Below the pieces are notes generated by a model. That model was not told the DNA's origin and did not search any database. It worked only from the letters and a program-made list of their open reading frames with translations. 64,000 bases of DNA, taken from positions 6,608,278-6,672,277 of the forward strand of contig NC_049982.1 of assembly GCF_000003815.2 (NCBI RefSeq). The letters run 5' to 3'. The stretch comes from Branchiostoma floridae. Lineage: Eukaryota; Chordata; Leptocardii; Amphioxiformes; Branchiostomatidae. Position numbers and translations under genes: made by a program. Positions 16,946-53,525 of this stretch are shown piece after piece (the first letter of the stretch is position 1; each line of letters begins with the position of its first letter).

Positions 16946-16997
16946 CTGAAACGCAAGAATGTGGGGGTTACTTAGCACCGACAGATAACCTACAAGA

Positions 16998-18148: not shown

Positions 18149-18635
18149 CTGAAACGCAAGAATGTGGGGGTTACTTAGCACCGACAGATAACCTACAAGA
18201 ATATCTGAGATTTGTAGGATTTTGTGGGAAATGTTTTTGTTTTATCAAACATCGCAGCTGCATGAGGCCGATCCCTGATTGAACAAGTGAACTGATCAGG
18301 GACAGCTACATATGTATGTAAACAGTCCAAATCCACAAATCCAAGTCACTACTGTCCAAAATACCCACCACAGTTCACATTTGCAGGGAGTCACACCGAT
18401 CAGTCCCTACTGTATAGGACGTGTAGTTCCCGAGGAAAATTTTGTTTGGAAATACGGCGTCGTTGAAAATAGTCTCTTAACTATACGTTTCAATGGGGGC
18501 GAGAAACTAAATGTTCCATTTTCAAGCAGGGGTTATTTGGGACAGTTAAACCTTGCATGGGAAAAGATATGGCTGAAATATGCTGTATTTACTCCTAAGC
18601 AAATGTCGGCCTTTCTAGTTATTCTCAGCTTTTGT

Positions 18636-23037: not shown

Positions 23038-23879
23038 GGTCTTCACATATCAATTAAATAATAAGATTCTGAACCCCTAGCGCCTCTTTGTGGTACTGCC
23101 CCAGGACATCAGGGTTTGACATATTACTTAGATTTAGATGCAAGGCGTGTCAAAAGTGGTATTCTGTCAAGACCTAACATGGAAAGGGAGTCTAGTTTGC
23201 ACAGGATTTCAGTCTGATATTGAAGTATGCATTTGCACATACATGTATGATAACGTTATGCATTGGTACATATCATCAAGACATTTAATCAAAGACAAAC
23301 TGTGTGACAGTCATAAAGGTATGATCAAGACACACTTTTCAGTAGAATTTTATAATAGCAAGGCATCATGGAGAGGGGTGTTATATCATTATACAGCTTG
23401 CACAGGTCAATTTGATTTTGTAATATACGTATTTGAATATTATTTTCTTCATTTCTCACTTTCTGCAGAATTCACATTTTCCTCTAGGGCCACACCAATT
23501 CAATTTGTTGTTTGTCAGATTTTTTCCGCTCCATCAATTTCTTAGATAACAAATTCTTTACGTTTTGCGTGTTACTGTCTTATTAAATCAGACTTTTGCA
23601 TTATATTCCAGTTCTAAATTCAAGGGACACATCTTAGTTCCTCAGCGATCACTGTCTAATCGAAAGAGGTATCTGTAGGGTAGGGGTGATTAACAGGATG
23701 TGTGTATGAATGCTTTACTTTGATGGACGAATGCTGTCGTTTTTGTTCTTCTTTCTTGAGTGTTGGGGGGGGGGGGGTAACCTGATTTCCGTTTCCTTCT
23801 AAGTTACTAATAGATACCACCCTCCCTCGCCTGTCTAACTCCCCTCCCTGATACCACAAGTCTCACAACTTTAGGCTCC

Positions 23880-24050
23880 TCACTCACTCTCACTCTCACT
23901 CATGGCAGGATATTGTCGCTCTCTCTCTCTGAGGAACCCCTCCCTTCAGGAACTACATTCACTCAATCACACATACTCTCACTCACTCACTCACTCACTC
24001 ACACATTCACTCACTCACACATACTCTCACTCACCCACTCACTCACTTAC
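23880..24050. repeat. (CACT)n / (CTCACT)n microsatellite
   Basis: Interrupted runs of CACTCACTCACT on the plus strand; the apparent His/Ser/Leu/Thr reading frame is a product of the repeat. Confidence 0.85.
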
Positions 24051-24124
24051 ATGCAGCCCTCTCCACTATCCTAATTTCCAATAAAAGATATCTCACAAGC
24101 TGGAGTTGAAGCCACATGTTGTAC

Positions 24125-24130
24125 TTTATT
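24125..24130 (-). terminator. Candidate polyadenylation signal AATAAA
   Basis: AATAAA on the minus strand followed by GTACAACATGTGGC and a TTGTGAG-containing stretch, a plausible cleavage region. It is the first canonical signal I noticed downstream of the membrane exon stop. Confidence 0.35.
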
Positions 24131-25198
24131 CTGGGAGGTTCAAAAGACAATACACATCTGAAAACACATTGATGGCATGATGCTCCTGGCATCTTACAAA
24201 GGAGCATTGATTTCCTGTAATTGACAATATATTTAAAGAATGGAATAGATGGTTATTGTAGAAAACTGACAGATGTGATAAAAAAAACTGTCAATGGAAA
24301 CATTTTTCACAGAAGTTAAAAGTTGTTGATTTTCCTCCTTCAGATGATACAGGAGGATTCTATGAGTACATACATGTAGATGTTACAGCTTCATTCTAGT
24401 TTACCTACATACTACTTCAATATAAGAGCGCTAATAATGATATTGTTGCTTACATCATGGCGATCTGCATTTGACATCTCGGGGTGACAATTTGGGGGGA
24501 TGAAAGGTGTTGCTTTGCTCAGCAAAATTGTAGACAACAAGTCTTCTCTCAAACTTTACTGTGAACAAGTTTTGATGTTGAAATAACACCTGCAGATGCA
24601 GGATAGTACAGGTAGAATTGTACTGACAAAAAAGATGTTTGCTTCTGAAGTTGCCTTACACAGTTCACGTTCTAAATTCTGCTGTACAACACACTTAAGA
24701 TGATTTAAAACACCTTAACAACATTGTTCTTGATATGCTTGACTCAGGTGCCCCCTCTGTACTAAAAATACTGATCGCCAGGTGCCTACTTAATCTAAAA
24801 CAAGCCGCATACAGTATTAGAAAAAAATTCTTAGTACATACTCAAAGAGCTGTTGTGATGAGAACCATTCCGATGGAATCCGAACATTCTTTGCCTTTGT
24901 AACTGACAACAATCCGGTGTTTAACACGTTCACCCCATCATATTGTAATTCTCTTGTCTGCAGTACCCTAACGTTGCTAACAAAATTGAATAATATGAAG
25001 AAGAAAAAAAACTAAAGACAGTCTGTGATAAACCAATCTGACTTCTGACTGACACAATCACACATTTTGTCTTGCCTTTTGAGACAACAGATATTATACA
25101 CTTTTAATACAAATCACAGAGCTGTCCCTTACCTGGTGAATATATATGATAATACATTCCGTATAATAGCGAGCATAAGCATTAAAAAAGTTGAAAAC

Positions 25199-26600
25199 TT
25201 AATCTTTGTGATGGTACAATTTCTATGCATTTGGAGATGACATACCAATGCTAGACAATATAAGATGTTGAACATTCACTGTCGATTCTCTCATCACAAG
25301 GTCCTAATTTGTTCCTTACCGTATATGTGCTTATCGTTTCCTCGTAGCAAATGCACAACTTGAAAAAAAAAGCAAAAAGCAACTTTCATCTTTGTGATTT
25401 CTATAAAATGCATTGGAGGTGACATATCAATGCTAAACAATGTGTAGATGTTAAACAATTGTTTTCTCATCACAAGGTCCTAATTTGTTCCTTACTATAT
25501 GCTTATCGTTTCCTAGTAGCTAATGCAGTTAAAGAAAAATGAAATAAAAACTTAATCATTGTGATGGTACAGTTTCTATGCCATTGGAGATGACAAACCA
25601 ATGCCAAACAATATGCAGATGTCAAACATTCACTGTCAATTCTCTCATCACAAGGTCTAATCTTGTTCCTTACTTATCGTTTCCTAATAACAAATGCACA
25701 CCTTAAAAAGCAAATTTCCTCTTTGTGATGGTACGATTAAAAAACAAACGCATTGGAGATGAGATATCAATGCTAAACAATATGTAGATCTTAAGCAATT
25801 GTTTCCTCATCACATTGACATTACTTGTTCCTGGCTATATGCTTATCATTTCCTAATAGCAGATGCACACCTTAAAGAAAATTAAAACTTAATCATTGTG
25901 ACGGTAAAATTTCTATGCCATTGGAGATGACATACCAATGCTAAACAATATGCAGATGTTAAACAATTTTCTCAATCCATCACAAAGTCCTAACTTGTCC
26001 TTCAGACAATAAATATGCTTACCGATCTTCTGTGATAGCACAATGTCAATTATGGATGCATTGGAGATGATATATATATTACCAATGCCAAACAATATGC
26101 AGATGTTAATAGACTCCATTTCAATCACATGGACCAAACCTCCAAAGAGTCAAGGGTTACCTGAACACACCCCTAGGATCTCAATTGCGTCATTTAAAAA
26201 TGATGCTCGAAAGTTACTACATGAGGGTTGGAAATCCATCCCAAAACACCAAAAAGGCAATGGAGGAATGTTAGAATCAATATTGCTAAAAATGTATGAG
26301 ATGTTAAACAATTGCTTTGTCATCGCAAGGTCCTGATAAGGTTCCTCAGACTATGCGCTTATGGTGTGTGATAGCACAATTTCAATAAAGGCATTGGAGA
26401 TGATATACCAATCCTAAAAAATATGCAGATGTTGAAAGACTCTTTTCCCATCACATGGTCCAAACCTACAAAGAGTCAGGGGTTACCTGAACACACCCCT
26501 AGGATCTCCAGAGGGTCATTTAAAAATGATGCTTGAAATTTACTACATAAGGGTTGGAAATACACCAAAAATGCAATGGATGAAAGTTAGAATCAATGTT
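25199..26600. repeat. Tandem repeat, unit about 170 bp, 7 or more copies
   Basis: Units share the landmark CATTGGAGATGACATACCAATG followed by a CTAAACAATATGCAGATGTTAA-like stretch and TCATCACAAGGTCCTAA. Landmarks fall near 25229, 25413, 25583, 25750, 25919, 26061 and 26392, i.e. mostly 167-184 bp apart. The last two units are longer and share a further segment (CACACCCCTAGGATCTC). Each landmark contains a short inverted repeat (CATTGG...CCAATG). Confidence 0.8.
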
Positions 26601-26949
26601 ACTAACAATTTGAAAGAAAGATTCAAGCAAAAGCAGCCAATAAGTCTTCATCCAACCATAGGAAAGGCAGCTAACCAAAAGTAAAAGCAAAAAAAAAAAA
26701 CCCCAAATGCCTGCAGGCTTGACACAAAATCCCATAAAATCCATTCATGCCCTAGTTACTGCATGTATGATAGCATGGGTACCCTTCCTAGTGAACAGGC
26801 TCCAAATTCCAATACCCCAATGGTGAGGAGGTAGTATGGGAGCCCATGAAATGAACCAGGATGGTACCCAGACTACTATGACTATCCATAAAGAATTTGC
26901 AGTTTTAAAGTTTAAGCTGTTCAAGCACATGGATGCCAAGACACTTCTA

Positions 26950-27187
26950 TCAGGTTATGGCCCTGTGTCCAACTGACCATGGAAATCTACATCTACCACA
27001 TATAGCTGTTCTAGCCATAAACATACAGATGCTGATGAAAATGATGGCGAGGCCCATAAAGATAAAGATGCTGATGAAAGGGATGAGGAGTTGATGATAC
27101 CTACAGCTGAAGAATGGCGTTGACGTGGTTTCGCTCAACGTTATGGGCGGCGAATCCGTGGCTAGACTCACAGCTCTCCCCTCACAG
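26950..27187 (-). CDS. Terminal exon: transmembrane helix and short tail
   Basis: It follows a good acceptor (pyrimidine-rich, ending CCACGCAG). In phase 2 it reads CEGRAVSLATDSPPITLSET then TSTPFFSCR, a Ser/Thr/Pro-rich stem. A hydrophobic segment of about 25 residues comes next (LLIPFISIFIFMGLAIIFIS then ICMFMA), followed by a basic, cysteine-bearing tail (RTAICGRCRFPWSVGHRAIT) and TGA. This is the layout of a type I membrane-protein C-terminus, and it lies directly downstream of the last PAN unit. No PAN exon lies between it and the start of array 2, and it is on the same strand. Whether it belongs to this gene needs cDNA. Confidence 0.5.
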
Positions 27188-27577
27188 CTGCGTGGAGTGT
27201 TGAGGAAAATAGCTTTTAAAAGTCAAGAATATGACTTAGATCATAAAACCCCATCATAATAGTGACATGTAACATTTGGGTCACTCAAATGAAGACGAAA
27301 ATGGACTTAAAACCAAAGCTTTTATCCCAGATTTTGTGACAACTGTTCCCAAGGAGGTATATAACCTCATTAATTGCTGTACCTGAGTCTATACTTTGCC
27401 ACGTATATCTGAGATTTGTAGGATTTTGTGGGAAATGTTTTATCAAACATTGCAGGTGCATGAGGCCGATCCCTGGGTATTGAACAATCGACGTGATAAG
27501 GGACAGCTACATGTATGTGGACAGTCCAAATCCACAAATCCAAGTCACTACTGTCCAAAATACCCACCACAGTTCAC

Positions 27578-27668
27578 ATTTGCAGGGAGTCACACCGATC
27601 AGTCTCTTTGTCATGATAGTAAATGCCAATTGTGGAATTTAATTTTGCAGGAAGACGGGAAGTGAAGA
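27578..27668 (-). CDS. Candidate juxtamembrane stem exon
   Basis: A 91-nt open segment, phase 1 in and phase 2 out. It reads FTSRLPAKLNST then IGIYYHDKETDRCDSLQ, between an AACAG acceptor and an AT|GTGAAC donor. Related sequence lies in every repeat unit, but most internal copies checked are one base shorter, or carry a 2-nt insertion, and do not fit the phase. This last-unit copy has one extra base that makes it a perfect bridge from the phase-1 linker to the phase-2 membrane exon. The acceptor has a weak pyrimidine tract and the donor is not strong. It may instead be an unspliced relic, with the membrane exon using a phase-1 acceptor a few bases further in. Confidence 0.35.
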
Positions 27669-27830
27669 CTGTTCGCAGTACTAAGTCTGGTGTTTTAAGT
27701 TCCAGAAATAGGATTATAATAAATACACAATTTTTTAGCCAGAAAATGGGATAACAAAGAAATCCTTAGGCTGACATAAAAAGTAGTCTCAGCATCTCGA
27801 CCTAAACAAGTAAAATTGCAATCTACTCAC

Positions 27831-27884
27831 CTGATGACAAGGGCGCTTCCTCCACACGTAATTGTGCAGCTGTCTCTGCCATAA
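27831..27884 (-). CDS. Linker exon, array 2 copy 5
   Basis: Last linker, with arginine instead of histidine at residue 9 (CGT for CAT). It ends in G (phase 1) and can join the stem exon at 27578-27668 (G+TC, Val) in frame. Confidence 0.55.
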
Positions 27885-28548
27885 CTGTTAAGTAACAAAC
27901 ATGAAGCTTAGACACACAGAAAGCTTAGACTGAACAACAATTTAAGTACATAACATTTTGTTCTTCTTAAATCATGAAACATTTGGGTATATAACCTCCT
28001 TGCTGTACCTGAGCCTGTACTGCGCTACCCCTGCTCCATCATCTTTTTATTGCATTACTTATTATCAAAAGAATACTCAGGGTTCTAGCTAGGATTTTAT
28101 TTTTGCAAAGGGGTAATGGCTAGTTAGCAAAGTGACCAAAAAAATGTATGATTCAATGTATTCAAAGGAAACATTGCTAGATTAGGGTGATATGAGAATT
28201 ACTGGCTTATTGATACACAACATTGGTACAAAATAGTACAGTTTTTGGAACTTACATTTTATCAAGTGGAACATGATTATTAAGCAGGGTGCAAATTATG
28301 GGGCAAACTAGATTTAGCTACAGTGCTGGCTAGAATTCTAAATGGGACATACATGTAGCTGTGACATTGTGATGGGGGTAAAAAGCCAATTACAAAGGTG
28401 CAACAAAAGGTAATATAGATAATGTCTTGCAAATGAGTGACATGTCGGGAGGGGAGGAAAAAAGTTACACACGTGTACCCTAAAGAGTTTAAGAGCAAAA
28501 GAGAGCGGTAGACAGATCAAGATAGAGAACAAGGAGGAATACACTAAC

Positions 28549-28788
28549 ATGGCAATGCCTGTCGATCATACAAGTTGGTATTTGGTGAGCGAATTCTCTC
28601 GTCTGCAGGGCAGATCTTGTACTTCAAGACGCACTTTGATTGGGTGTTGTATGTAAATGACCGGCATGACCCGACTCTACAGCATTGGTCTGCACAGGCC
28701 TTGGCAGTAGTCTGCTGGTACGTGGCTATGTCATAACCGGGACAGTCAGACTGGGGCTGGAGGTAATAATCTGATAATCCACACGTTC
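28549..28788 (-). CDS. PAN/apple-domain exon, array 2 copy 5 (last)
   Basis: Last PAN exon before the membrane exon. It is intact, 240 nt, phase 1-1 and carries the AKA variant. It ends with CCA T|GTTAGT, so the next exon must not begin with GA (this would make TGA); the linker at 27831-27884 begins with TT. Confidence 0.85.
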
Positions 28789-29283
28789 CTGAAATGCAAG
28801 AATGTGGGGGTTACTTACATTGTAGCACCGCCAAATAACCTACAAGAATATCTGAGATTTGTAGGATTTTGTGGGAAATGTTTTTGTTTTATCAAACATT
28901 GCAGGTGCATGAGGCCGATCCCTGGGTATTTTCCTGATTGAACAATCGACATGATAAGGGACAGCTACATGTACATGTGGACAGTCCAAATCCACAAATC
29001 CAAGTCACTACTGTCCAAAATACCCACCACAGTTCACATTTGCAGGGAGTCACACTGATCAGACTCTTTGTCATGATAGTAAATGCCAATTGTGGGATTT
29101 AATTTTGCAGGAAGAGGGAAGTGAAGACTGTTTGCAGTACTGGTGTTTTGAGTTCCAGAAATAGGATTATAATAAATACATACTTTTTTAGCCAGAAAAT
29201 AGGATAACAAAGAAATCCTTAGGCTGACATAAAAAGTAGTTTCAGCATCTCGACCCAAACAAGTAAAATTGCAATCTACTCAC

Positions 29284-29337
29284 CTGATGACAAGGGCGCT
29301 TCCTCCACATGTAATTGTGCAGCTGTCTCTGCCATAA
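29284..29337 (-). CDS. Linker exon, array 2 copy 4
   Basis: Between the 30.0 and 28.5 kb PAN exons; identical to the copy at 33672, with histidine at residue 9 of the linker. Confidence 0.6.
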
Positions 29338-30001
29338 CTGTTAAGTAACAAACATGAAGCTTAGACACACAGAAAGCTTAGACTGAACAACAATTTAAGT
29401 ACATAACATTTTGTTCTTCTTAAATCATGAAACATTTGGGTATATAACCTCCTTGCTGTACCTGAGCCTGTACTGCGCTACCCCTGCTCCATCATCTTTT
29501 TATTGCATTACTTATTATCAAAAGAATACTCAGGGTTCTAGCTAGGATTTTATTTTTGCAAAGGGGTAATGGCTAGTTAGCAAAGTGACCAAAAAAATGT
29601 ATGATTCAATGTATTCAAAGGAAACATTGCTAGATTAGGGTGATATGAGAATTACTGGCTTATTGATACACAACATTGGTACAAAATAGTACAGTTTTTG
29701 GAACTTACATTTTATCAAGTGGAACATGATTATTAAGCAGGGTGCAAATTATGGGGCAAACTAGATTTAGCTACAGTGCTGGCTAGAATTCTAAATGGGA
29801 CATACATGTAGCTGTGACATTGTGATGGGGGTAAAAAGCCAATTACAAAGGTGCAACAAAAGGTAATATAGATAATGTCTTGCAAATGAGTGACATGTCG
29901 GGAGGGGAGGAAAAAAGTTACACACGTGTACCCTAAAGAGTTTAAGAGCAAAAGAGAGCGGTAGACAGATCAAGATAGAGAACAAGGAGGAATACACTAA
30001 C

Positions 30002-30241
30002 ATGGCAATGCCTGTCGATCATACAAGTTGGTATTTGGTGAGCGAATTCTCTCGTCTGCAGGGCAGATCTTGTACTTCAAGACGCACTTTGATTGGGTGT
30101 TGTATGTAAATGACCGGCATGACCCGACTCTACAGCATTGGTCTGCACAGGCCTTGGCAGTAGTCTGCTGGTACGTGGCTATGTCATAACCGGGACAGTC
30201 AGACTGGGGCTGGAGGTAATAATCTGATAATCCACACGTTC
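30002..30241 (-). CDS. PAN/apple-domain exon, array 2 copy 4
   Basis: Intact 240-nt phase 1-1 exon, AKA variant, eight cysteines. The unit start is 1453 bp from the next copy and 1455 bp from the previous one, showing how regular this part of the array is. Confidence 0.85.
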
Positions 30242-30738
30242 CTGAAATGCAAGAATGTGGGGGTTACTTACATTGTAGCACCGCCAAATAACCTACAAGA
30301 ATATCTGAGATTTGTAGGATTTTGTGGGAAATGTTTTTGTTTTATCAAACATTGCAGGTGCATGAGGCCGATCCCTGGGTATTTTCCTGATTGAACAATC
30401 GACATGATAAGGGACAGCTACATGTACATGTGGACAGTCCAAATCCACAAATCCAAGTCACTACTGTCCAAAATACCCACCACAGTTCACATTTGCAGGG
30501 AGTCACACTGATCAGACTCTTTGTCATGATAGTATTAATGCCAATTGCGGGATTTAATTTTGCAGGAAGAGGGAAGTGAAGACTGTTTGCAGTACTGGTG
30601 TTTTGAGTTCCAGAAATAGGATTATAATAAATACATACTTTTTTAGCCAGAAAATAGGATAACAAAGAAATCCTTAGGCTGACATAAAAAGTAGTTTCAG
30701 CATCTCGACCCAAACAAGTAAAATTGCAATCTACTCAC

Positions 30739-30792
30739 CTGATGACAAGGGCGCTTCCTCCACATGTAATTGTGCAGCTGTCTCTGCCATAA
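30739..30792 (-). CDS. Linker exon, array 2 copy 3
   Basis: A 54-nt phase 1-1 exon between the 31.5 and 30.0 kb PAN exons, same reading as at 33672. The intron just downstream carries the 2-nt insertion variant (GTATTAATG instead of GTAAATG on the plus strand, about 30531) that breaks any reading of the stem-exon relative located there. Confidence 0.6.
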
Positions 30793-31456
30793 CTGTTAAG
30801 TAACAAACATGAAGCTTAGACACACAGAAAGCTTAGACTGAACAACAATTTAAGTACATAACATTTTGTTCTTCTTAAATCATGAAACATTTGGGTATAT
30901 AACCTCCTTGCTGTACCTGAGCCTGTACTGCGCTACCCCTGCTCCATCATCTTTTTATTGCATTACTTATTATCAAAAGAATACTCAGGGTTCTAGCTAG
31001 GATTTTATTTTTGCAAAGGGGTAATGGCTAGTTAGCAAAGTGACCAAAAAAATGTATGATTCAATGTATTCAAAGGAAACATTGCTAGATTAGGGTGATA
31101 TGAGAATTACTGGCTTATTGATACACAACATTGGTACAAAATAGTACAGTTTTTGGAACTTACATTTTATCAAGTGGAACATGATTATTAAGCAGGGTGC
31201 AAATTATGGGGCAAACTAGATTTAGCTACAGTGCTGGCTAGAATTCTAAATGGGACATACATGTAGCTGTGACATTGTGATGGGGGTAAAAAGCCAATTA
31301 CAAAGGTGCAACAAAAGGTAATATAGATAATGTCTTGCAAATGAGTGACATGTCGGGAGGGGAGGAAAAAAGTTACACACGTGTACCCTAAAGAGTTTAA
31401 GAGCAAAAGAGAGCGGTAGACAGATCAAGATAGAGAACAAGGAGGAATACACTAAC

Positions 31457-31696
31457 ATGGCAATGCCTGTCGATCATACAAGTTGGTATTTGGTGAGCGA
31501 ATTCTCTCGTCTGCAGGGCAGATCTTGTACTTCAAGACGCACTTTGATTGGGTGTTGTATGTAAATGACCGGCATGACCCGACTCTACAGCATTGGTCTG
31601 CACAGGCCTTGGCAGTAGTCTGCTGGTACGTGGCTATGTCATAACCGGGACAGTCAGACTGGGGCTGGAGGTAATAATCTGATAATCCACACGTTC
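31457..31696 (-). CDS. PAN/apple-domain exon, array 2 copy 3
   Basis: Intact 240-nt phase 1-1 exon with eight cysteines and the AKA variant before the third cysteine. It appears identical to the next two copies at 30.0 and 28.5 kb, so the last three units look recently amplified or homogenised. Confidence 0.85.
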
Positions 31697-32191
31697 CTGA
31701 AATGCAAGAATGTGGGGGTTACTTACATTGTAGCACCGCCAAATAACCTACAAGAATATCTGAGATTTGTAGGATTTTGTGGGAAATGTTTTTGTTTTAT
31801 CAAACATTGCAGGTGCATGAGGCCGATCCCTGGGTATTTTCCTGATTGAACAATCGACATGATAAGGGACAGCTACATGTACATGTGGACAGTCCAAATC
31901 CACAAATCCAAGTCACTACTGTCCAAAATACCCACCACAGTTCACATTTGCAGGGAGTCACACTGATCAGACTCTTTGTCATGATAGTAAATGCCAATTG
32001 TGGGATTTAATTTTGCAGGAAGAGGGAAGTGAAGACTGTTTGCAGTACTGGTGTTTTGAGTTCCAGAAATAGGATTATAATAAATACATACTTTTTTAGC
32101 CAGAAAATAGGATAACAAAGAAATCCTTAGGCTGACATAAAAAGTAGTTTCAGCATCTCGACCCAAACAAGTAAAATTGCAATCTACTCAC

Positions 32192-32245
32192 CTGATGACA
32201 AGGGCGCTTCCTCCACATGTAATTGTGCAGCTGTCTCTGCCATAA
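32192..32245 (-). CDS. Linker exon, array 2 copy 2
   Basis: Follows the frameshifted PAN exon and precedes the 31.5-kb one. Sequence and splice sites are identical to the copy at 33672. If the broken PAN exon is skipped, the previous linker can join this one in frame (G+TT gives Val). Confidence 0.55.
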
Positions 32246-32920
32246 CTGTTAAGTAACAAACATGAAGCTTAGACACACAGAAAGCTTAGACTGAACAACA
32301 ATTTAAGTACATAACATTTTGTTCTTCTTAAATCATGAAACATTTGGGTATATAACCTCCTTGCTGTACCTGAGCCTGTACTGCGCTACCCCTGCTCCAT
32401 CATCTTTTTATTGCATTACTTATTATCAAAAGAATACTCAGGGTTCTAGCTAGGATTTTATTTTTGCAAAGGGGTAATGGCTAGTTAGCAAAGTGACCAC
32501 AAAAAATGTATGAATCAATGTATTTAAAGGAAATATTACTAGATTATGAAATAGGGTGATATGAGAATTACTGGCTTATTGATACACAACATTGGTACAA
32601 AAAAGTACACCCATTTTTGGAACTTACATTTATCAAGTGGAACATGGTTATTAACCAGGGTGCAAATTATGGGGCAAACTAGATTTAGCTACAGTGCTGG
32701 CAAGAATTCTTAACGGGACATACATGTAGCTGTGACATTGTGATGGGGGTAAAGCCAATTACAAAGGTGCAACAAAAGGTGATACAGCATGTCTTGCAAA
32801 TGAGTGACATGTCGGGAGGGGAGGAAAAAAGTTACACACGTGTACCCTTAGCTAAAGACTTTAAGAGCAAAAGAGAGCGGTAGATAGATCAAGATAGAGA
32901 ACAAGGAGGAATACACTAAC

Positions 32921-33170
32921 ATGGCAATGCCTGTCGATCATACAAGTTGGTATTTGGTGAGCGAATTCTCTCGTCTGCAGGGCAGATCTTGTACTTCAAG
33001 ACGCACTTTGATTGGGTGTTGTATGTAAATGACCGGCATGACCCGACTCTACAGCATTGGTCTGCACAGGCCTCGACAGTAGTCTGCTGGTATGTGGCTA
33101 TGTCATAACCGGGACAGTCAGACTGGGTCAGACTGGGGCTGGAGGTAATAATCTGATAATCCACACGTTC
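32921..33170 (-). pseudogene. Frameshifted PAN exon, array 2 copy 2
   Basis: Same splice borders as its neighbours but 250 nt long: the stretch CTGACCCAGT is duplicated in tandem near the 5' end of the exon (around 33118-33140), shifting the frame. Reading from the acceptor, the domain runs into TGA right after the PQSDPV region. The downstream DCPGYD...RQALP part is intact in another frame. Because flanking exons are all phase 1, skipping this exon would keep the message in frame. It could also be an assembly or sequencing error. Confidence 0.75.
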
Positions 33171-33671
33171 CTGAAATGCAAGAATGTGGGGGTTACTTAC
33201 ATTGTAGCACCGCCAAATAACCTACAAGAATATCTGAGATTTGTAGGATTTTGTGGGAAATGTTTTTGTTTTATCAAACATTGCAGGTGCATGAGGCCGA
33301 TCCCTGGGTATTTTCCTGATTGAACAATCGACATGATAAGGGACAGCTACATGTACATGTGGACAGTCCAAATCCACAAATCCAAGTCACTACTGTCCAA
33401 AATACCCACCACAGTTCACATTTGCAGGGAGTCACACTGATCAGACTCTTTGTCATGATAGTAAATGCCAATTGTGGGATTTAATTTTGCAGGAAGAGGG
33501 AAGTGAAGACTGTTTGCAGTACTGGTGTTTTGAGTTCCAGAAATAGGATTATAATAAATACATACTTTTTTAGCCAGAAAATACTATTAGGATAACAAAG
33601 AAATCCTTAGGCTGACATAAAAAGTAGTTTCAGCATCTCGACCCAAACAAGTAAAATTGCAATCTACTCAC

Positions 33672-33725
33672 CTGATGACAAGGGCGCTTCCTCCACATGT
33701 AATTGTGCAGCTGTCTCTGCCATAA
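33672..33725 (-). CDS. Linker exon, array 2 copy 1
   Basis: A 54-nt exon between the 34.4-kb and 32.9-kb PAN exons. The acceptor is TACTTAACAG and the donor a near-perfect CAG|GTGAGT. In phase 1 it reads (F)MAETAAQLHVEEAPLSS(G), a flexible acidic linker. The first split codon (T+TT) and the last (G+GA) are both sense. Another frame (GRDSCTITCGG) is also open but does not match the phase of the neighbours. Confidence 0.6.
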
Positions 33726-34400
33726 CTGTTAAGTAACAAACATGAAGCTTAGACACACAGAAAGCTTAGACTGAACAACAATTTAAGTACATAACATTTT
33801 GTTCTTCTTAAATCATGAAACATTTGGGTATATAACCTCCTTGCTGTACCTGAGCCTGTACTGCGCTACCCCTGCTCCATCATCTTTTTATTGCATTACT
33901 TATTATCAAAAGAATACTCAGGGTTCTAGCTAGGATTTTATTTTTGCAAAGGGGTAATGGCTAGTTAGCAAAGTGACCACAAAAAATGTATGAATCAATG
34001 TATTTAAAGGAAATATTACTAGATTATGAAATAGGGTGATATGAGAATTACTGGCTTATTGATACACAACATTGGTACAAAAAAGTACACCCATTTTTGG
34101 AACTTACATTTATCAAGTGGAACATGGTTATTAACCAGGGTGCAAATTATGGGGCAAACTAGATTTAGCTACAGTGCTGGCAAGAATTCTTAACGGGACA
34201 TACATGTAGCTGTGACATTGTGATGGGGGTAAAGCCAATTACAAAGGTGCAACAAAAGGTGATACAGCATGTCTTGCAAATGAGTGACATGTCGGGAGGG
34301 GAGGAAAAAAGTTACACACGTGTACCCTTAGCTAAAGACTTTAAGAGCAAAAGAGAGCGGTAGATAGATCAAGATAGAGAACAAGGAGGAATACACTAAC

Positions 34401-34640
34401 ATGGCAATGCCTGTCGATCATACAAGTTGGTATTTGGTGAGCGAATTCTCTCGTCTGCAGGGCAGATCTTGTACTTCAAGACGCACTTTGACTGGGTGTT
34501 GTATGTAAATGACCGGCATGACCCGACTCTACAGCATTGGTCTGCACAGGCCTCGGCAGTAGTCTGCTGGTACGTGGCTATGTCATAACCGGGACAGTCA
34601 GACTGGGGCTGGAGGTAATAATCTGATAATCCACACGTTC
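34401..34640 (-). CDS. PAN/apple-domain exon, array 2 copy 1
   Basis: First PAN exon after the signal exon. It has a TTGCATTTCAG acceptor and a T|GTTAGT donor; 240 nt, phase 1 at both ends, open throughout. The domain runs from TCGLSDYY through DCPGYDIATYQQTT, ACADQCC, SCRSFTYN, KCVLKYKICP to NTNLYDRQALP, with eight cysteines in the order seen in PAN_AP/apple domains (C...C-x3-CC...C...C...C). This copy reads AEA before the third cysteine, where its neighbours read AKA or VEA. Confidence 0.85.
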
Positions 34641-37600
34641 CTGAAATGCAAGAATGTGGGGGTTACTTACATTGTAGCACCGCCAAATAACCTACAAGAA
34701 TATCTGAGATTTGTAGGATTTTGTGGGAAATGTTTTTGTTTTATCAAACATCGCAGCTGCATGAGGCCGATCCCTGATTGAACAAGTGAACTGATCAGGG
34801 ACAGCTACATATGTATGTAAACAGTCCAAATCCACAAATCCAAGTCACTACTGTCCAAAATACCCACCACAGTTCACATTTGCAGGGAGTCACACCGATC
34901 AGTCCCTACTGTATAGGACGTGTAGTTCCCGAGGAAAATTTTGTTTGGAAATACGGCGTCGTTGAAAATAGTCTCTTAACTATACGTTTCAATGGGGGCG
35001 AGAAACTAAATGTTCCATTTTCAAGCAGGGGTTATTTGGGACAGTTAAATGTTGCATGGGAAAAGATATGGCTGAAATATGCTGTATTTACTCCTAAGCA
35101 AATGTCGGCCTTTCTAGTTATTCTCAGCTTTTGTCACACGCTATCAACACACCTAGACTACAAACCATTCAGCAACAGTTCTTGAGTTATCTTGTTGACA
35201 CACACGTTTACAGGCATACAATTCAAAATATAACAACCATGAATATTTCATGGTCTAATAAAGCTACTATGTCCATAATTATGTAAACAACGCGTATCAT
35301 AGCATGAACAGGAACATGAACATACATTTTGTACTACTATTTGACAAACTTTTTTTGTGACAATGCAAGTGAGAAAAATGGCATAATTTTGTGCTTGTAG
35401 AATTGATGCTTTACTTCGTGAAGAGGATTTAGTGGTTCAGTTATCTATTTCTTACTTATTGCTTCGCGGGTGTTGTGGGGAAGGGTGAGGGGGAAGGGGG
35501 CGAAAGACAAATGATTTGTTAATGGTTATGATAAGTTCGCACTACAGATGTCACCGTGAGCCAGGCTTTTAGTTTTAGGCAAACATTTTTGGTCACAGTC
35601 TTCTACAGTAACTGTGACTTCTCTGACAGTAATTTTGGCCCTCAGGATACCTTAGAATGCACCATTTCAACTTAAAATTCTTGAAAACTCTGCACCATGG
35701 AAGGTGGATGCCCCTAGACCCCCCTACAATAGTCACACCAATATCACTTACCATGACCCACAGAAATTTGGTTCCCCACAAACCCACGAACGCTACCAAA
35801 AACATAACCTTCTTGGCAAAGATAACAATAAAATTATGTACACTGTTGTGATACTTTCCAGCGCAACTTTCATAGTGCTTTGTTAAAATCATGTAGCCTC
35901 TATGTATACCAGACCCCAGCCTGGATGAATAGTAAATGATGATAGGGGCTTTGGCCAAGTAAGGAATAAAAGCCTAGTAGGGGTTAACGGGTTGGCTCTG
36001 GCTCTGGGGCTTTGGCCAAGTAAAGAATAAAAGCCTAGTAGGGGTTAACTGGCCTAGGAATAAACTGACCGGTTGGCTCTGGATAGACTGCAAAAGACTG
36101 ACTGAAATCCCATGGCAACTTATTTGGCCAAAATCTTTTTTCATCTAGCTGACACGTCTGCTTGGAGACTAAAAATTATGACCACTTCTTCATTTTTTTG
36201 AAAAATAAACAGCACACCCACTGCATTATGTTTGTTTTCCTGACCTACTTTGACCAACGAAAATAATGTCCTACTGGTGTTTTAAAAAGTTGAGTTACAG
36301 GCCCTTTACTAAAAATATCAGAAAATGTATGCCCTGTTTTGGGGATGAACGCCTTTGGTAAGCCCTAATTTTCCGCCGGAAACTTCGCTCAAACTTCAAA
36401 ATTCACCGATTTCGGCCTTCATGAAGCCGCCATTTTTAATCTACCTTCAAGTTTCGCGCAATCTCGCACTAACTCACATCTCGCAAATCCTGAGAGTCAC
36501 ACCCCATTGGCCATTTTGCAGTGTTCTCGCCAGGCCTTTTCAGCATAGCGGGCCGATACGCTGTGGGCTGGAAAAATGACGCTGTAAAAAGCCCGCTACG
36601 CTGTATTTTCACCCAGCGTAACGGCAAAAAATGGGGGAAAACTGGAAAAAATACCGTAGTAAAAATGCGAAAGCACGTGCCAAGCACGTGCCTCCGCTGT
36701 TTCAGGAAGTTTCAGCTCAAAGGTAGGTGTTTTGTAGCACCCCGCGTACCGCTATCTCGCAGCCCCCACCCAGGACCGCCCCTTGCGCGGCGTGCGTTCT
36801 GTACTGTAAACAGAGAACCGGCACAAAACTTGTAAAAAGTTTCGGTTCAAGTCCAGTTAAAATCGGAACGGCAAGAAACGCTTCTTGGACTTGCACAAAA
36901 ATAGCACTTGTATACATTCCCTTTTATGTTGCAGTATACTTGTAAATCATCTAAAACCTTCCAAAGATCGAGAAATTTGCGTTGAGAAATGACGAAAAAC
37001 ATCGTGCGTGCATGCATACAAGCAGCTAGCGGTAATGGCGGCGATAACATCGTAAAATCTCGCAAAAGATTCTCGCGAGATCTGATGCGTCTCTGTGAAG
37101 TCTCTGCGCCTGGGTGTTGCTATTGGTGGAATATCTGATGCCCACACCGCTGTGTTCGCGGGAAAAATACCGCAGAAAAGCATGAAACTTTGACAATGTT
37201 ACGAAAACTATTTTTTGCTTGTTTGGGACATACTGTCGTGCAATGTGGGAAAAACAACAGCTAGCGTGGCAATGACTATACCAGGGGAGGGGGCGCAGTC
37301 GGCACTGAATTCGTATAAAATGTTAAACGGCGGTCCCAATTTTTCACGGTTCTTTGAGATATTACTTTTGTTGCAGTTGCTAATTTGGAGAAAGTAACAA
37401 CTTAGAAGTGGCGCAACCTGAAATGCCGATGGCGCAAGTTGGTTTTTGATTCAGGTTGCCGCCTGCGCAACCAGGCTGAAAAAAGTATTTTGAGCACTGA
37501 AACAGGTGTACAAAGTATGTGCAAAAGGTTGTTTTATTCACATTGGAGGTATATTTGCATGTGTACCATGCAAATATACCCAGGGATTTTTTAAAACAAG

Positions 37601-37849
37601 GGAACAGGGGCGGCAGCAGAACCTCTGGCAAGCATATGTAAAATGCTGATTGACCAGGGATCACATGTGGCCACAGTCTCCAACTCTGACCTGTCTGATA
37701 GTAATTTGGGCCCCAAGGAAGCCATAGAATTCTCCATTTTAACTTGAAATTATCAAAAACTCCACACCCTGGTAGGGAGAACCCTACATGTATCTCCCCC
37801 ACTTGGTGGCGCTCAACTGCAGTGCTCCCTCTTGCAATTTTTTTCTAGA

Positions 37850-37945
37850 AAAACCCGTGGTACAGGTAACATTTCTCTGGTGCAGGTAATTTCAAAAGTT
37901 ACCTGCACCAGTGCAGGTAGATAGACAGACAAAAATATTTCGAGC
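37850..37945. mobile_element. Relative of the CAGGGCTCGAAATA element end
   Basis: Palindrome TTACCTGCACCAGTGCAGGTA followed by ATATTTCGAGCCTCC, resembling the right end of the 5510-6280 element (palindromic GTGCAAG then TATTTCGAGCCCTG). Confidence 0.45.
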
Positions 37946-38095
37946 CTCCTATAAATTAATTCACCATAAAGGGGATATGGATTCTCCCACCCAATATACC
38001 TTTACCTAATTAGGCTCCACTCAGAATAATCAGTACTTTGTTGTGCTCATCGCTAATCAGCCCACATGAAGGGATAAACAAGTCCACTAGCCTTA

Positions 38096-38402
38096 TAGTC
38101 CTGGGCAAGTGAAAATGCCAATCGGGCAAGTGCATGTCCTTCCCCACTTGCCCGATCGGACAAGTTAGCTTTTCTCCATTGAGTGAGATTTTGATGTACT
38201 TGCTACTTTTCAAAGTCATGACATCAAGCATTGATTAACACAGAAAATAGAGCCAATAACAAAAATTCCATTGAAGGCCATGAATATACATAGAAAAATG
38301 TCATTTAGATTTCGGGCAAGTGAAAAGTTGGTTCGGGCAAGTAAATTTTTTAAGTACTTGCCCGATAGGACAAGTCAATTTTAGAAAACTTGTCCAACCC
38401 TG
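38096..38402. mobile_element. Short non-autonomous element with palindromic ACTTGCCCGA motifs
   Basis: Several copies of ACTTGCCCGAT(C/A)GGACAAGT and of its reverse TCGGGCAAGT occur in both orientations. The element starts at CTGGGCAAGTG and ends CTTGTCCAACCCTG. Ends are imperfectly inverted (CAGGGTTGGACAAG on the minus strand). Confidence 0.45.
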
Positions 38403-38529
38403 ACATGGCAAAAAAAAAATCTTAACTTATACCATGTGAAAGAGGTGTTCAAATATGCGGGCAAACCAGAAAACACACAACAAAATCAGTACATTTCCCT
38501 GGGAGGGAAATAAAAATAATGCCACAAAC

Positions 38530-38611
38530 CTTCTTGTCCAGCAGCCAGACGAACAGACGTCACCAGGACCACGCCTAGCAACGCCATGACTACAGACAGG
38601 AGGCACCTCAT
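38530..38611 (-). CDS. Signal-peptide first coding exon
   Basis: Reads M-R-C-L-L-S-V-V-M-A-L-L-G-V-V-L-V-T-S-V and then RLAAGQE, a classic signal peptide: a short charged start, a hydrophobic core of about 15 residues and a likely cleavage site after LAAG or nearby. The start codon has A at -3. The exon ends E-G|GTTTGT, leaving one base (phase 1), which matches the phase of the PAN exons; joining to the 34.4-kb PAN exon gives GGA (Gly) followed by TCGLSDYY. An acceptor (pyrimidine-rich, ending CGACAG) just upstream at 38637-38638 suggests the 5' untranslated region is split, with this exon starting at 38636. No other gene on this strand is nearer than the PAN array, so assignment to it is likely but not proven. 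Confidence 0.65.
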
Positions 38612-38999
38612 GGTTTCCCTTGGGCTTGTAGACAGCCTGTCGAGGAATAAACAGAATTCAAAAGTTTCTTAATTTCCCGTCTGAAATAGAACTGTATATC
38701 TTCGTCCAGATAGGCAGTGAAGAGGTAGATTTCTTCTTAACTCTATGAAAAAGGAGGTGTTGTTTTCAGTGTGCATTATCTGTTTGTCCATTTTCCCCAT
38801 TTATTTTGGACAGCAATATAATCAAAATTACATGTTACATACAAAACTACAGTTCAGACTATTAAAGAAAAAAAAGAACACAAAGGATAGAATTTGCAAT
38901 GCCTGCCCTTGATAACACCAGTGCCAAAACTTAAAGCACTCACATATAGTTTGTTATTACCTGCATCAAGAAGGTTATATTTTCGGTTATGGCATGATG

Positions 39000-42950: not shown

Positions 42951-43524
42951 CCAGCCCTCCCCCCCCGATAAATATCGTCAGGTCCCTTAGTTCTTTGCAA
43001 ATTTGACAGAACTGACGTATGCATATTACACCTTTGGGTCACTCATTTATGCTGCCGATTCTATAGTAATGTGCATCAATTTAGCGTAAGTCTGCATAAG
43101 TTATAATTTGCCACGAACCCCCATGCACACCTTCTTTTCAGACTGGACAGGGTTTTCGGCCCAATTTCCATGTCTGGACTGGACAGTGTTTTCCGAAAAC
43201 CCATTTTGGACTGGATCCCTTTGCAATAGATTATTTTACAAAAATTTTAGGCAGAGGTTTATTTGGAATAACGTTATTTCAACTGTGACTTTTGAGTCCC
43301 ATTTAATAGATGGGATGGAGAAATTATGGGGTGCTGCGTTTGATTGCAAAAAATTGCCTTTCTCGTAACGTTACATTTATATTTATATTCCACAGACCTA
43401 CAAATTAGTACAACTAGACTGATCTACAAGTTACAACATAGGTTCAACTTGATAGAATTCATAACATGCTCAGGAGTATGTATTTTTGAACAAGTATATT
43501 TGAGACCGCCTGCTACCTGCGCTC

Positions 43525-43755
43525 TTGGCTGTCCCGCGGTCTGCTTATTATCCAAGGCTGAAATCAAGGAGCTTGCATCGTGGTCGCTGGGATTATGTGG
43601 GGCGTCGTGGCAAAGTTCAGCCCTTTCTGCAGTACACGGGTCAGCTGGTCGCTCAGTCCGCGCTTGGAGATGTTCAAACCCCATTTTCAACTGTGTACCG
43701 GAGGAGGACTGGACAAGTCGGTGTTCAGCCTGTTGCTGATGCAGGAAAACTTTGA
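43525..43755 (+). CDS. Unrecognised open segment, doubtful
   Basis: 76 codons, reading RWDYVGRRGKVQPFLQYTGQ and onward to a stop. Composition is protein-like (few rare residues), but there is no recognised motif, the opposite strand is also open here, and no clear splice partners were found. It could be a fragment of a mobile-element protein. Confidence 0.12.
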   Translation: MAVPRSAYYPRLKSRSLHRGRWDYVGRRGKVQPFLQYTGQLVAQSALGDVQTPFSTVYRRRTGQVGVQPVADAGKL

Positions 43756-44622
43756 GCAGATGAAACTTGTCATTTCAAGATGGCGGATATCTCTGTGGAA
43801 TCTCGTTCCCAGGTTCTGGGATCGAACCGACGGAGTCTCTGTCCCCGGATAACTCGGTTGTAGCTCGTACGCGATTGGTTGTTGATCTTTCGTCTTTCTC
43901 CTGGAGCTAGTGTGAGAATTTTGTTGTCTCTAAAACGATTCGATCAGCTGACAAGAGCCTTCTATGACTTTTGAATGATATTAGAATTAGCTTAAGTTCT
44001 GAGATCAGAACACGAATTTTGGCCTATGGACTGCCTCCATTTAACGCGGTTGCAGTAATGGTAGGGTGCACTAGAGAATTGATATGTTTGATTTTGTGTC
44101 AAAATCTACAAAACGATTGAAAAAAAAAATTGTGGTTTTATTGAGGTCCTCTTCTAAATGGCGTCCAGCGACCTAGCGGTGGTCAACGGAACTGCAGCCG
44201 ACTCACGCGACAGACAGGCAGGAAATTCATGCGCATTTAGAACTACGCCACACCTAGCTAGGCAAACTCCACATTCCAATTTATAAAATCTGAAAGCCTG
44301 CTTTCTTGTCTATTATGCTAGTACAGTTTCTGCCTCACCGACGTTCGCGATACAATTTCAACGAAGTGCTCAATATTTTGGTCATAGATAATGAATACTA
44401 GGCTTGGCGACATGAAGTTGCCGGGTCCCTGTAATTCAACGGTAAAGCATCGCGAAGCCAAATTGGTTGCTTTAATTCTGCGTAGCATCTATTTTGTTAT
44501 CCTGAATTTTACATATATTATTGACAAATTATCCGTATCGAACACCAGTGTGCTTATATTTATACCCCAGTCACATGAAGATCGACAGAACGTCGCGAGT
44601 ATCAAGTATTCGCCTGAAAAGC

Positions 44623-44715
44623 TAGCCTCTACTAGGCTCCCCAGGTCGCTGGAAAAATAGAAATTGGCCAATTTCTACTATTTTTCCAGCGACCTGGGGA
44701 TTCTGGTAGAGGCTA
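44623..44715. repeat. 93-bp near-perfect hairpin
   Basis: Arms TAGCCTCTAC... and ...GTAGAGGCTA enclose CCCCAGGTCGCTGGAAAAAT and its inverse ATTTTTCCAGCGACCTGGGG, meeting at AATTGGCCAATT. Arms are about 46 bp with a few mismatches. Also flanked by CTGAAAAGC on both sides (44614-44622, 44716-44724), possibly a target duplication, 9 bp and directly repeated. Confidence 0.75.
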
Positions 44716-44724
44716 CTGAAAAGC

Positions 44725-47700
44725 GTCCCTACTCCCTGTCACATTTGAGCGAGGCTCGGGTAATCGCCTGAGAATACATTATGATAAATGAGCCTCCCAT
44801 GACATGGCGCCACCTCTTGCACGCGGACAAGATAAGACAAAACGTTCCAAACAAAAGGGCAATCGTTCAATCAATTTTGATGTCTTAGTTGTGGGAATCT
44901 TTTGAACCATTAAATGGGCCTCAAGGACAGAATAAAAATGATCACAGATAAACCCAGCCCGAATACTACCTCAGGAGCCACAAGGTCAGAACTACTCGCT
45001 AGGTTAAAGAAGGCTACATTTACCAGCAATAGGGAATCGGGCGAAACTCGTCCGATTAGCAATCGGTATTCACTAAGTCGGTCTCCACTCGCCAGACATC
45101 TCAAAGATCTGCGACCTCGGTGCACAGCCAGCATCGGACGACTTCTAAAAATCGCCGAAGATCACTAAAAATCGCGGACTGATCGAGAAAACACAGGACG
45201 TATTATTACTGTCGAAAGTGTCATGTAGAGCTCGGAAACTCGTCACAAATGTGACGGGTTATTGAATGGCAGCGGAGTGCCCGGTTGTGTCCGCGTTCGC
45301 CGCTTTAATAGTTTTACCAAGTTTTACCAAGGAGGTAAAAAAAGGAACCTCATTGGTTTCACTATCACCAGGTCAATACAGTGGCATAATTCATGAACTC
45401 TAAAACTGCTCGCAAGAACAAGCCCATTTACCATTAGGTCCTTTCTTCCTAGCTTTATAATTATTATTAAGCCTTGTTGGGATCCCCCTATTCAGGTCCT
45501 CCTTACAGACTCACTAACGCCACCTAACAGTAAACACACCCTCGCCGCAGTGCCAAAGTCATTTGCCCTGAAGGAATACCTGAGCGCGATCGCCAGCCGG
45601 AGGTGTGTCCGAGCTAACGCAGGCCGCCAGGGGGTTTCAGGCTTCCATGGCTCAAGGATCCTCAAGGCATTATGCCCGCCGTTCTAGCGCTCTGGGTTGT
45701 AGTAGGCCCATATGGATAAGGGTAACTTCCCCAGAGCGCTAATTTATTGGCGGGCACACTGCCAACAGCCGTCGAAGAAATCGGAGCGTCCGTCCCGCGT
45801 TATGCTACGGTCACATTTCAAAACCGGCAGCTTTCGGAAACGGAAAGTACAGTATAAAAGATTCCCTGGGAGCCAGACAGGACCGGATAGCTAGCGAGTT
45901 TTGTTCGGGGACCCAAGGCAGTTAGCCCGCAGATCTTACATTAGTGCTATGGGGGAGTTTAAGTCCGAAGGAGTTATCGCTACCCTTTCCGGACGGGAGA
46001 AGGGCAGATGAACCTAATCGGGCTTAAACTCCCAGGGTGCTAATATAGGAGATCGGCGGGCCTGACTGTCTTGGGCTACCGAATAAACTGTCCTAGCTGC
46101 CCGATCCCGGCTGGCTCCCAGGGTATATAAAAGACAACAAAACACACAGAATGTAACGAAATTTTGAGGTTGGAGTATGGTATCCAGGCTATCCTTGGAC
46201 CTAATCGGGCTTATACTCCCCGGGGCGCTAATAGGAGCTCGGCGGGCCTGACTGTCTTGGGCTACCGATATAAATGTCCAAGCTGCCCGCCCCCGGATGG
46301 CTCCCAGGGTATGCATTCAGGGAAGGTGCGGCATGAAGATGGCGGCTGGCTAGACTCGACTTCAGGGTCAGCGGCACAATGCGAAATACAGGAGAATCAT
46401 AAAGCCTGTATCACAATTCAAGCGAACGCCGACTGAATTTGATCATGATCTTCTAGTGCTCGCCGAATTTCCACATAGCCCGAGCACCGGCTGTATTTTT
46501 CGCTGAAAATCTCAGGCCCCTTCACAAATTGGACGGGGCTCGGGCGACGTCTGTCCAACACTAATGATTATAAATTCGCCGTGAGATACTTTGGACATGG
46601 ACGAAGTGAGAATCGACTAACCCGGTAAAAAGCGAATACTTAGACCAACTTTAATTTCTAAGTTGTGGGAAATATGAAGGGCATGAATAAAAAAGTAATA
46701 ACATTACCAGGGAATTGCGATAGATCAATCCAAAATCTCATAAAAAGCTCAAAAATCGTCGCCGATGCCTCACTGAATTTAAAAGCAGCTTTCAGGGACC
46801 CGCGAACGTCGGCCAAACTGCTAAAAAATCGCCCTAGGCCAGCGTAATAATCGCCAGGACGCCAGTCTTTCTTCGGCCGAAAATGCCCATTTCGAGCTCA
46901 CCAACACGTCGGCCGAGCTCAATTCTTGATTTGTGACTGGTGGCCGCCCCATTATGTTGCATGAGCAGTCAAGAAATGGCAGAGGTAGAATAGCAGCGTG
47001 TAGGCTGACCACCTCTCCATGTACTGTACCTAGTGCAGCCAAGAAGTTACCGGTTATGTGTCTGGTGTAAGGTTGAAAACCCACTCTACTAGACTCTAGA
47101 CCTCTGGACCTATATATGCCTGTTGTAGTCGAGGCATTAACTTTGCGATGTGCAGCAAGGCGGATAAATACGTATACGCGCTTCTGGCGCGAGGCCCCGC
47201 CCCCCTAGCCACGGACAGCGGTATTTGCGTCAAGCAGACTAGATGTACATCTAGTGACTATATGGCCGACGATTGGACTCGGATGGATGGTTCGACCAGG
47301 CCCGAGTGCAGTCTTGACATTACTGGTCAGATGAAGTCCCACAGGTTCCTGGCGTCGTCAAGAAAATGGAAAATATGTGGGTGTGACGGCCCCTTATCGA
47401 CCCGGCCTGTTGCTTGCTTCCCCCCAAAAATACCGGTACAAGTACGATATTCATTCTATGGTTGGCGACGTCTGACTTGACCCGACTTGTGCCTGTAGCG
47501 GGCGAGATCCGGCCACGTCAATAGGATGTGCGGTGTGATCGAGGATGACGACTGGCTCGGCCGAGACCCACGTGCGGCCAAGAAAGCTTTGAATTTTGCG
47601 GCAGATTTTATATGTCGACGGCCAACACGCCCAGATCTGTTGCCAGTACGTACTTGCGGTGGGGAATGCATGACATAAAGTTAGCAGCGACTCAACCCAG

Positions 47701-53429: not shown

Positions 53430-53525
53430 CATGACAACACAAAGCTTTAAAACACTTAACTGTTATACCAAGATCAAGATGTTAACACGCGTACGGCAAA
53501 AGTAACAATCATTACTGACTGAATT

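Follow-up and report, generated by a model that had tools for sequence, protein, structure and literature searches.

Homologous end exons around unlike inner modules in a putative local family of surface-protein genes with tandem PAN exons in Branchiostoma floridae

We describe a locus of the lancelet Branchiostoma floridae that occupies, and extends to the left of, a 64,000-nucleotide window (NCBI RefSeq assembly GCF_000003815.2, contig NC_049982.1; C4:6608278-6672277) in a searched assembly of 513.4 Mb and 431 contigs. Within the window, gene A presents on the minus strand, in order, a leader (signal-peptide) exon, five PAN exons, five linker exons of 54 nucleotides (nt) and a membrane exon, its PAN and linker exons forming a tandem array (array 1). 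A larger set of PAN and linker exons, array 2, lies further left in the window, and beyond the window's left end are two genes, C and E, in which end exons of the gene A kind enclose other modules (Table 1).

All AG/GT borders examined for the PAN and linker exons of gene A are in phase 1. An initial annotation, made from the letters alone, had placed signal-peptide, PAN/linker and membrane exons in order on one strand with compatible phases, and the phase-1 joins can indeed be read in the sequence. It had further proposed four or five PAN domains joined by 18-residue linkers; the linkers stand as 54-nt exons, and of the five PAN exons of array 1 four are intact and one (at 33170) is frameshifted, so that the 10-base duplication in PAN exon 2 leaves four intact PAN domains in gene A. 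An unshifted PAN exon is symmetrical in phase, and its skipping would therefore keep the reading frame. The extent given to the gene, 26950..38636, holds for the exons of gene A, but falls short of the full set of repeats, as a further 12 PAN exons and 9 linker exons are found at 18.1-0.5 kb; the mix of PAN types there, the assembly gaps and the end exons shared around unlike insides likewise go beyond that annotation. By eye, a 3' splice site lies directly upstream of 38636, with a counterpart in genes C and E; the leader exon is therefore probably not the first of the transcript, and a 5' untranslated exon would lie further upstream. Hydropathy over 19 residues peaks at 2.34 in the leader and at 2.89 in the membrane exon, so placed that the product is predicted to be a type I single-pass protein with an N-terminal signal peptide and a hydrophobic helix on its C-terminal side, followed by a tail of about 20 residues in which a tyrosine motif was not seen.

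Table 1. Features of the locus. Coordinates are window positions; negative numbers lie left of the window, and the C4 coordinate equals 6608277 plus the number.
Feature	Position	Strand	Description
Signal-peptide (leader) exon, gene A	38530..38636	-	ATG at 38611; MRCLLSVVMALLGVVLVTSVRLAAGQE; phase-1 donor after 38530
Array 1	27405..35134	-	tandem units of ~1453-1480 bases (PAN and linker exons with introns); intron stretch common to array 2
PAN exon 1, array 1	34401..34640	-	240 nt, phase 1-1; PF00024 28.8 bits
Linker exon 1	33672..33725	-	54 nt, phase 1-1
PAN exon 2	32921..33170	-	250 nt; out of frame, 10-base duplication near 33126
Linker exon 2	32192..32245	-	54 nt
PAN exon 3	31457..31696	-	240 nt
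Linker exon 3	30739..30792	-	54 nt
PAN exon 4	30002..30241	-	240 nt
Linker exon 4	29284..29337	-	54 nt
PAN exon 5	28549..28788	-	240 nt; PF00024 27.4 bits for the amino-acid sequence
Linker exon 5	27831..27884	-	54 nt
Membrane exon, gene A	26950..27161 (start approximate)	-	S/T-rich stalk, hydrophobic helix, short Cys/Arg tail; stop 26952-26950
3' flank of gene A	23211..27319	.	copied downstream of gene C, at 87% across 3.1 kb and at 86% near the membrane exon
5' flank of gene A	43432..58258	.	largely collinear with gene C 5' flank; pieces at 69-89%, some repeated, one inverted
Array 2	274..18635	-	12 PAN exons of three types; 9 linker exons; N gaps at both sides and inside
PAN3 exons of array 2	18.1, 16.9, 10.6 kb	-	
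PAN2 exons of array 2	11.4, 5.3 kb	-	
PAN1 exons of array 2	15.1, 13.7, 9.0, 7.5, 4.4, 3.0, 1.5 kb	-	
Gene C	-21090 to -55230 (L011-L014)	-	leader and membrane exons of gene A kind; other modules between
Gene E	-83725 to -71746 (L039, L040)	+	leader, one C-type lectin exon, membrane exon; inverted relative to A and C

The identity of the repeated domain was assessed with two Pfam profiles. All five exons or fragments submitted exceed the curated PF00024 cut-off of 21.4 bits (27.4, 28.8, 28.0, 25.5 and 27.8 bits); the array 1 scores among them are 27.4, 28.8 and 27.8, the last obtained with the fragment of PAN exon 2 that follows the frameshift. For PF14295 (PAN_4; cut-off 27 bits), four sequences score 25.0, 26.8, 23.8 and 26.8, and only PAN3, from array 2, passes with 28.1. 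The initial annotation had named both profiles as a check, and the PAN assignment holds under PF00024 for everything sent, the array 1 sequences scoring less than the PF14295 cut-off. The window contains three PAN types, PAN2 being 51% and PAN3 62% identical to PAN1. Across seven aligned exons of these types seven cysteine columns are invariant, and an eighth is present in six of the seven. Of the 17 PAN exons in the window, 15 are full-length and open, and in one of these the first cysteine is lost to an in-frame deletion of 9 bases; the other two are a frameshifted exon and one truncated by an N gap. The acceptor AG and its phase are preserved in all 16 whose start is in the sequence.

Taken by itself, a PAN array is ordinary in this genome. 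It yields at least 110 PF00024 matches with 150 of 201 candidates scored; a search with PAN1, in which all 112 candidates were scored, yields 91. A tree of 28 PAN exons, built from the three window types and 25 exons from fetched loci that match PAN1 (loci L001-L008 have none at that threshold), groups PAN1-PAN3 as a cluster (support 0.91-0.99) within a widely scattered family. A second tandem PAN array, with five exons and unit-length matches of 84-99%, was observed on C3. Tandem PAN arrays of similar units occur at C3:3369000-3378000 (L031) and C3:3996900-4001400 (L032), the longest matches between these two loci reaching 87-94% in opposite orientation. The pattern of constant ends with exchanged insides was examined only in the leader/membrane family.

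The near-identity of the repeats was analyzed on the 12 PAN1 units among the 17 PAN exons, leaving aside the PAN2 and PAN3 exons (one of them gap-cut). On average, two units differ by 1.35% in the PAN exon, by 0.56% in the linker and by 1.18% in the introns. Because introns are as similar as exons, the near-identity reflects recent duplication or homogenisation, bearing out the recent expansion suggested in the initial annotation; purifying selection was considered as its cause and rejected on the same ground, the introns being equally similar. Equal divergence of exons and introns is also what would be expected of a degenerate or non-coding tandem repeat that happens to lie within an intron of a leader-membrane gene whose other exons went undetected, and the frameshift in one of the five array 1 exons agrees with that explanation. 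We regard it as highly unlikely, given that 15 of the 17 window PAN exons are full-length and open, that all 16 exons whose start is in the sequence preserve the acceptor AG and its phase, and that seven cysteines stay invariant across three types at 51-62% identity. Alternatively, both the frameshift and the number of units in array 1 might be assembly artefacts of a near-identical tandem repeat: units A3 and A4 each differ from A5 at 1 of 757 intron bases, and there are N gaps inside array 2. Array 1, however, contains no N, and by their introns its units are of two types (A1-A2 versus A3-A5), which makes such an artefact unlikely in our view.

A comparison of PAN1 with PAN3 yields differences at 45 of 242 exon sites, 16 of 255 upstream-intron sites and 34 of 185 downstream-intron sites, with replacement (dN) and synonymous (dS) divergences of 0.224 and 0.109. 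Replacement sites tested against synonymous sites alone give a Fisher p of 0.20; tested against synonymous plus intron sites (34/175.8 vs 55/489) they give p = 0.0095, a post hoc value from one pair, while the equally post hoc tests against a single intron give p = 5e-5 for the upstream and 0.89 for the downstream one. A recombination border could mimic this replacement excess.

A genome search finds the membrane exon at three places: in gene A, in gene C (-55021..-55230, 89%) and, on the opposite strand, in gene E (-71934..-71746, 81-82%). Its frame is open at every one of them, and at least one stop interrupts each of the other five frames in every copy. Amino-acid identity to the gene A membrane exon is 89% for gene C and 81% for gene E. 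Leader exons occur in gene C at -21090 (81% over 21 residues) and in gene E at -83725 (67%), the former retaining, by eye, its phase-1 donor despite indels that alter its end. Each of the three membrane-exon places has an upstream leader exon on the same strand, and two of the five leader places lack a detected membrane exon. The pairing of the end exons goes beyond chance, because in two neighbouring genes the paralogues stand in matching order and relative strand, and because three of three membrane copies keep the frame open. We also considered the membrane exon as a chance hydrophobic frame opposite an acidic repeat, and rejected this in view of its two paralogues, with that frame open and the other frames closed. 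Genes A, C and E would constitute a local leader/membrane gene family, with homologous end exons in the same order and phase-1 joins possible. Splice phases, Pfam and the reappearance of both end exons in genes C and E back the membrane protein of tandem PAN domains put forward in the initial annotation.

The membrane exons of A and C agree at 198 of 212 bases (93.4%) versus 82.1% in their flanks. Among the four leader copies of A, C, E and C4:6444662, 16 of 27 codons are variable (for C, 21 codons are covered); 15 of these carry a replacement and 1 only a silent change, which are small numbers. Two further leader copies were seen on C4, at 6444662-6444823 (77%) and 6395279-6395366 (76%); the genome-wide search lists no membrane exon near either of them.

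Gene C, located 60 kb from gene A, contains two TIL modules, six CBM14, two C-type lectin, one F5/8C-like and one Kunitz module. Pfam cut-offs are passed by one TIL of the two (48.5 bits), one CBM_14 of the six (63.4), Lectin_C (75.9 and 34.5, from parts of both lectins), Kunitz (69.5) and F5_F8_type_C_2 (31.0 and 34.4); the remaining CBM14 copies (96-100%) and the second TIL (74%) come from tblastn. Two of the nine gene C open reading frames (ORFs) submitted to Pfam found no match; one of the two is presumed to encode the 5' half of the second lectin. At their outer borders, all 12 modules offer a phase-1 AG and GT, with sites in other phases also available there; inside the F5/8C and second C-lectin modules, the introns fit phase 2. 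The six CBM14 exons (-27371 to -51433) differ by 2-8% versus 12-56% in their flanks, unlike the array of gene A; since these exons are far closer than their flanks, the pattern points to purifying selection or exon-limited gene conversion in gene C rather than to debris. We searched the gene for concealed PAN exons by tblastn and with a local hidden Markov model (HMM) built from genome PAN exons and run with filters off, and rejected the idea, nothing on the gene C strand exceeding 8.5 bits (E 0.6).

Gene E presents one C-type lectin exon (77.2 bits); other modules were not found among those searched, in an interval that includes a 100-N gap. An ORF resembling reverse transcriptase lies in its long intron at -75060..-73810 (by eye, no profile run).

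Duplication extends beyond the end exons into the flanks of genes A and C (Table 1). Within the window, a direct repeat joins 21704-23399 to 61323-63008 (89% over 1.7 kb). The 3' flank of gene A partly recurs at 58.6-63 kb, as if a past or present family member lay to the right. A gene D in that direction was sought, but no end exon was found in the 40 kb to the right of the window, a stretch with N gaps inside.

Array 2 lends itself to two explanations. It is interrupted or bordered by N runs at 18636-18735 (100 N), 16438-16537, 10595-10761 and 4490-4589, with 5454 N to the left of position 1, and contains internal 6-kb blocks repeated at 98-99.5% identity. That the N gaps fall near the edges of these blocks suggests that a repeat or the haplotypes caused trouble in the assembly. 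Neither the genome leader search (5 places, 5 of 5 candidates) nor the membrane search (3 places, 5 candidates scored) found an end exon in array 2. Over 232 bases, the gap-side intron of array 2 (18404-18635) matches the first intron of array 1 (34903-35134) at 99.1% identity. One possibility, which we rate somewhat short of even odds, is that array 2 is the other haplotype of gene A or a misplaced piece of it, set in tandem by the assembler, so that there would be one gene whose PAN number and types depend on the allele. The gaps that bound the array on both sides, the absence of end exons among the search results, and gap-side introns far closer to each other than the A-C duplication all agree with this, as does the genome search, whose listed matches include PAN1-type exons (94% or more) only within the window. 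According to the portion of PMC7269912 drawn on here, the B. floridae 19-chromosome assembly was built with Sanger reads from a single diploid animal, whose haplotypes were first assembled separately and merged afterwards; such a procedure could place two alleles in tandem, provided that this is the assembly used here, an identity that we infer. Two extra PAN types and internal 6-kb repeats (98-99.5%), unneeded in a simple allele, speak against it, and an independent gene with its ends in gaps fits these observations equally well. Array 2 would then represent a gene B that arose by recent duplication of gene A and has its leader and membrane exons hidden in the flanking gaps. The array lies between the 3' flank of A and the 5' flank of C, the position expected of a tandem gene, and its first unit shares a 5' intron stretch with the first unit of gene A; but none of the 5 leader or 3 membrane places falls at this gene, and a 100-N gap would have to conceal a leader exon together with some 20 kb of 5' flank. 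We hold gene B as a tentative alternative, clearly below an even chance. Should array 2 prove an allele, the locus would also exhibit polymorphism in receptor length and type.

About 770 bases of array 2 intron sequence with sharp borders (5510-6283, 11686-12306) recur inverted in gene C (-26007..-25231) at 96%, and are probably a mobile insert. The inverted match was considered as array debris in gene C and set aside: it matches a single intron stretch, has sharp borders, and so resembles an inserted repeat more closely.

Exon order, phases, domain identities, the duplicated ends and flanks and the recency of the tandem copies can be read directly from the DNA. The explanation we favour, with a probability of about 0.58, is that the locus harbours a local family of type I surface proteins in which leader and anchor are kept and phase-1 cassettes are exchanged and amplified between them. 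Under this proposal, an ancestral leader-module-membrane gene would have been duplicated in tandem, and the inner cassettes would have been replaced by way of phase-1 introns, with PAN entering A, TIL, CBM14, C-type lectin, F5/8C-like and Kunitz modules entering C, and a C-type lectin entering E. Cassettes, once entered, would have been amplified in tandem by unequal crossing-over, which would also homogenise them. We infer that the exons of gene A are joined in a single spliced transcript, giving a protein whose signal peptide is cleaved and whose four (or five) PAN/apple domains, with 18-residue linkers, precede a single membrane helix and a short tail. Such proteins would most likely display multivalent binding modules on an epithelial or blood-cell surface, with repeat number setting avidity and cassette type setting specificity. 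The initial annotation had raised binding, self/non-self or adhesion roles as a speculation; the lectin and chitin-binding modules of the neighbouring genes would fit a role in surface recognition. A further-reaching version, which we consider rather improbable, would make this a hypervariable recognition locus, with ectodomains swapped as phase-1 cassettes between neighbours and PAN number and type dependent on haplotype; the replacement excess between PAN1 and PAN3, within the limits given above, and leader exons that vary almost wholly by replacement would fit it. If true, it would represent variable surface receptors in an invertebrate chordate made by exon-cassette exchange.

Several points weigh against the proposed family of anchored proteins. 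The predictions come from the genomic DNA of one species alone, and a shared phase is expected by chance at one join in three. One of the five array 1 PAN exons is broken and the PAN exons are conserved no better than introns, so gene A could be decaying. Coding constraint on the membrane exon is not proven, its dN/dS of about 0.75-0.9 deriving from few changes (A-C dN 0.065, dS 0.083). The splicing of this exon also presents difficulties. The phase-1 AG before 27161 is weak, with 3 pyrimidines in the 14 positions ahead of it (counted in the gene C copy), and other AGs lie upstream, making the start of the exon approximate. A better AG lies about 26 bases upstream (A: 27187-27162); its use in phase 1 would add a short tail and bring an early stop to all three of A, C and E, and the product could be a soluble form. 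In view of the weak acceptor and of the better AG that leads to a stop, the membrane form may be only one product, or none. Gene C has an additional phase-1 AG with an open frame about 50 bases upstream of its membrane exon. From the stop codon of gene A, the nearest same-strand AATAAA and ATTAAA lie about 2.8 kb and 1.8 kb downstream. The lectin exon of gene E would require a GC donor (by eye). Gene C, spanning 34 kb, could hold more than one gene; tandem-gene fusion is among the errors charged to lancelet gene models in the sections of Banyai and Patthy (2016, PMC4967905) drawn on here, and a prediction error of that kind could apply to it.

Among PAN/apple proteins (PF00024, PF14295), the likeness lies in the PAN1, PAN2 and PAN3 sequences sent all exceeding the PF00024 cut-off; those described here differ by their 7-8 cysteines per domain, their separate 18-residue linker exon and a membrane-exon family of their own. 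Coagulation factor XI and plasma prekallikrein carry several tandem apple domains and end in a trypsin-like protease. Gene A has tandem apple domains likewise, with a membrane helix on the C-terminal side; inspection by eye of ORFs of at least 62 residues at 18.7-27.4 and 35.1-64 kb, with no profile run, revealed no trypsin-like protease. The best match among PDB sequences is 4a5v (E 0.0045), from the apicomplexan MIC4/apple-repeat adhesins, with 2 PDB sequences found at E up to 1. Tandem apple domains of the MIC4 type bind carbohydrates or surfaces. With MIC4 and similar adhesins the locus shares only tandem apple domains, at weak local similarity and between unrelated organisms.

Exon shuffling in lancelets is already known, though disputed. 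As set out in the parts of their article used here, Huang et al. (2014, PMC4284660) reported that lancelets have the fastest exon shuffling among metazoans, with a bias to 1-1 phase exons, whereas the sections of PMC4967905 already cited attribute the differences to gene-prediction errors and report a C-lectin/fn2 fusion refuted by expressed sequence tags. The words 'PAN' and 'apple' are absent from the main text of PMC4284660, and our literature search on PAN/apple domains in amphioxus or lancelets found no description of gene A. The locus of genes A, C and E likewise presents phase 1-1 cassettes, promiscuous extracellular domains and new combinations; the published result is a genome-wide statistic, while here, at a single locus, both end exons stay constant and the inside changes. 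For the FrLRR of Branchiostoma belcheri, the portion of PMC10199209 consulted similarly proposes a lancelet receptor arising from exons shuffled into an existing gene; that case is a single fusion of folate-receptor-like and LRR parts, while the present one would be a family with constant ends and several exchanged insides. The comparison of A, C and E rests on DNA homology of end exons and flanks, and would be harder to ascribe to prediction error. The locus therefore offers a DNA-level test case for the disputed rapid recombination of modules in lancelets (PMC4284660 vs PMC4967905), in which homologous ends and flanks around wholly different insides are evidence for ectodomain replacement that does not rest on gene models alone.

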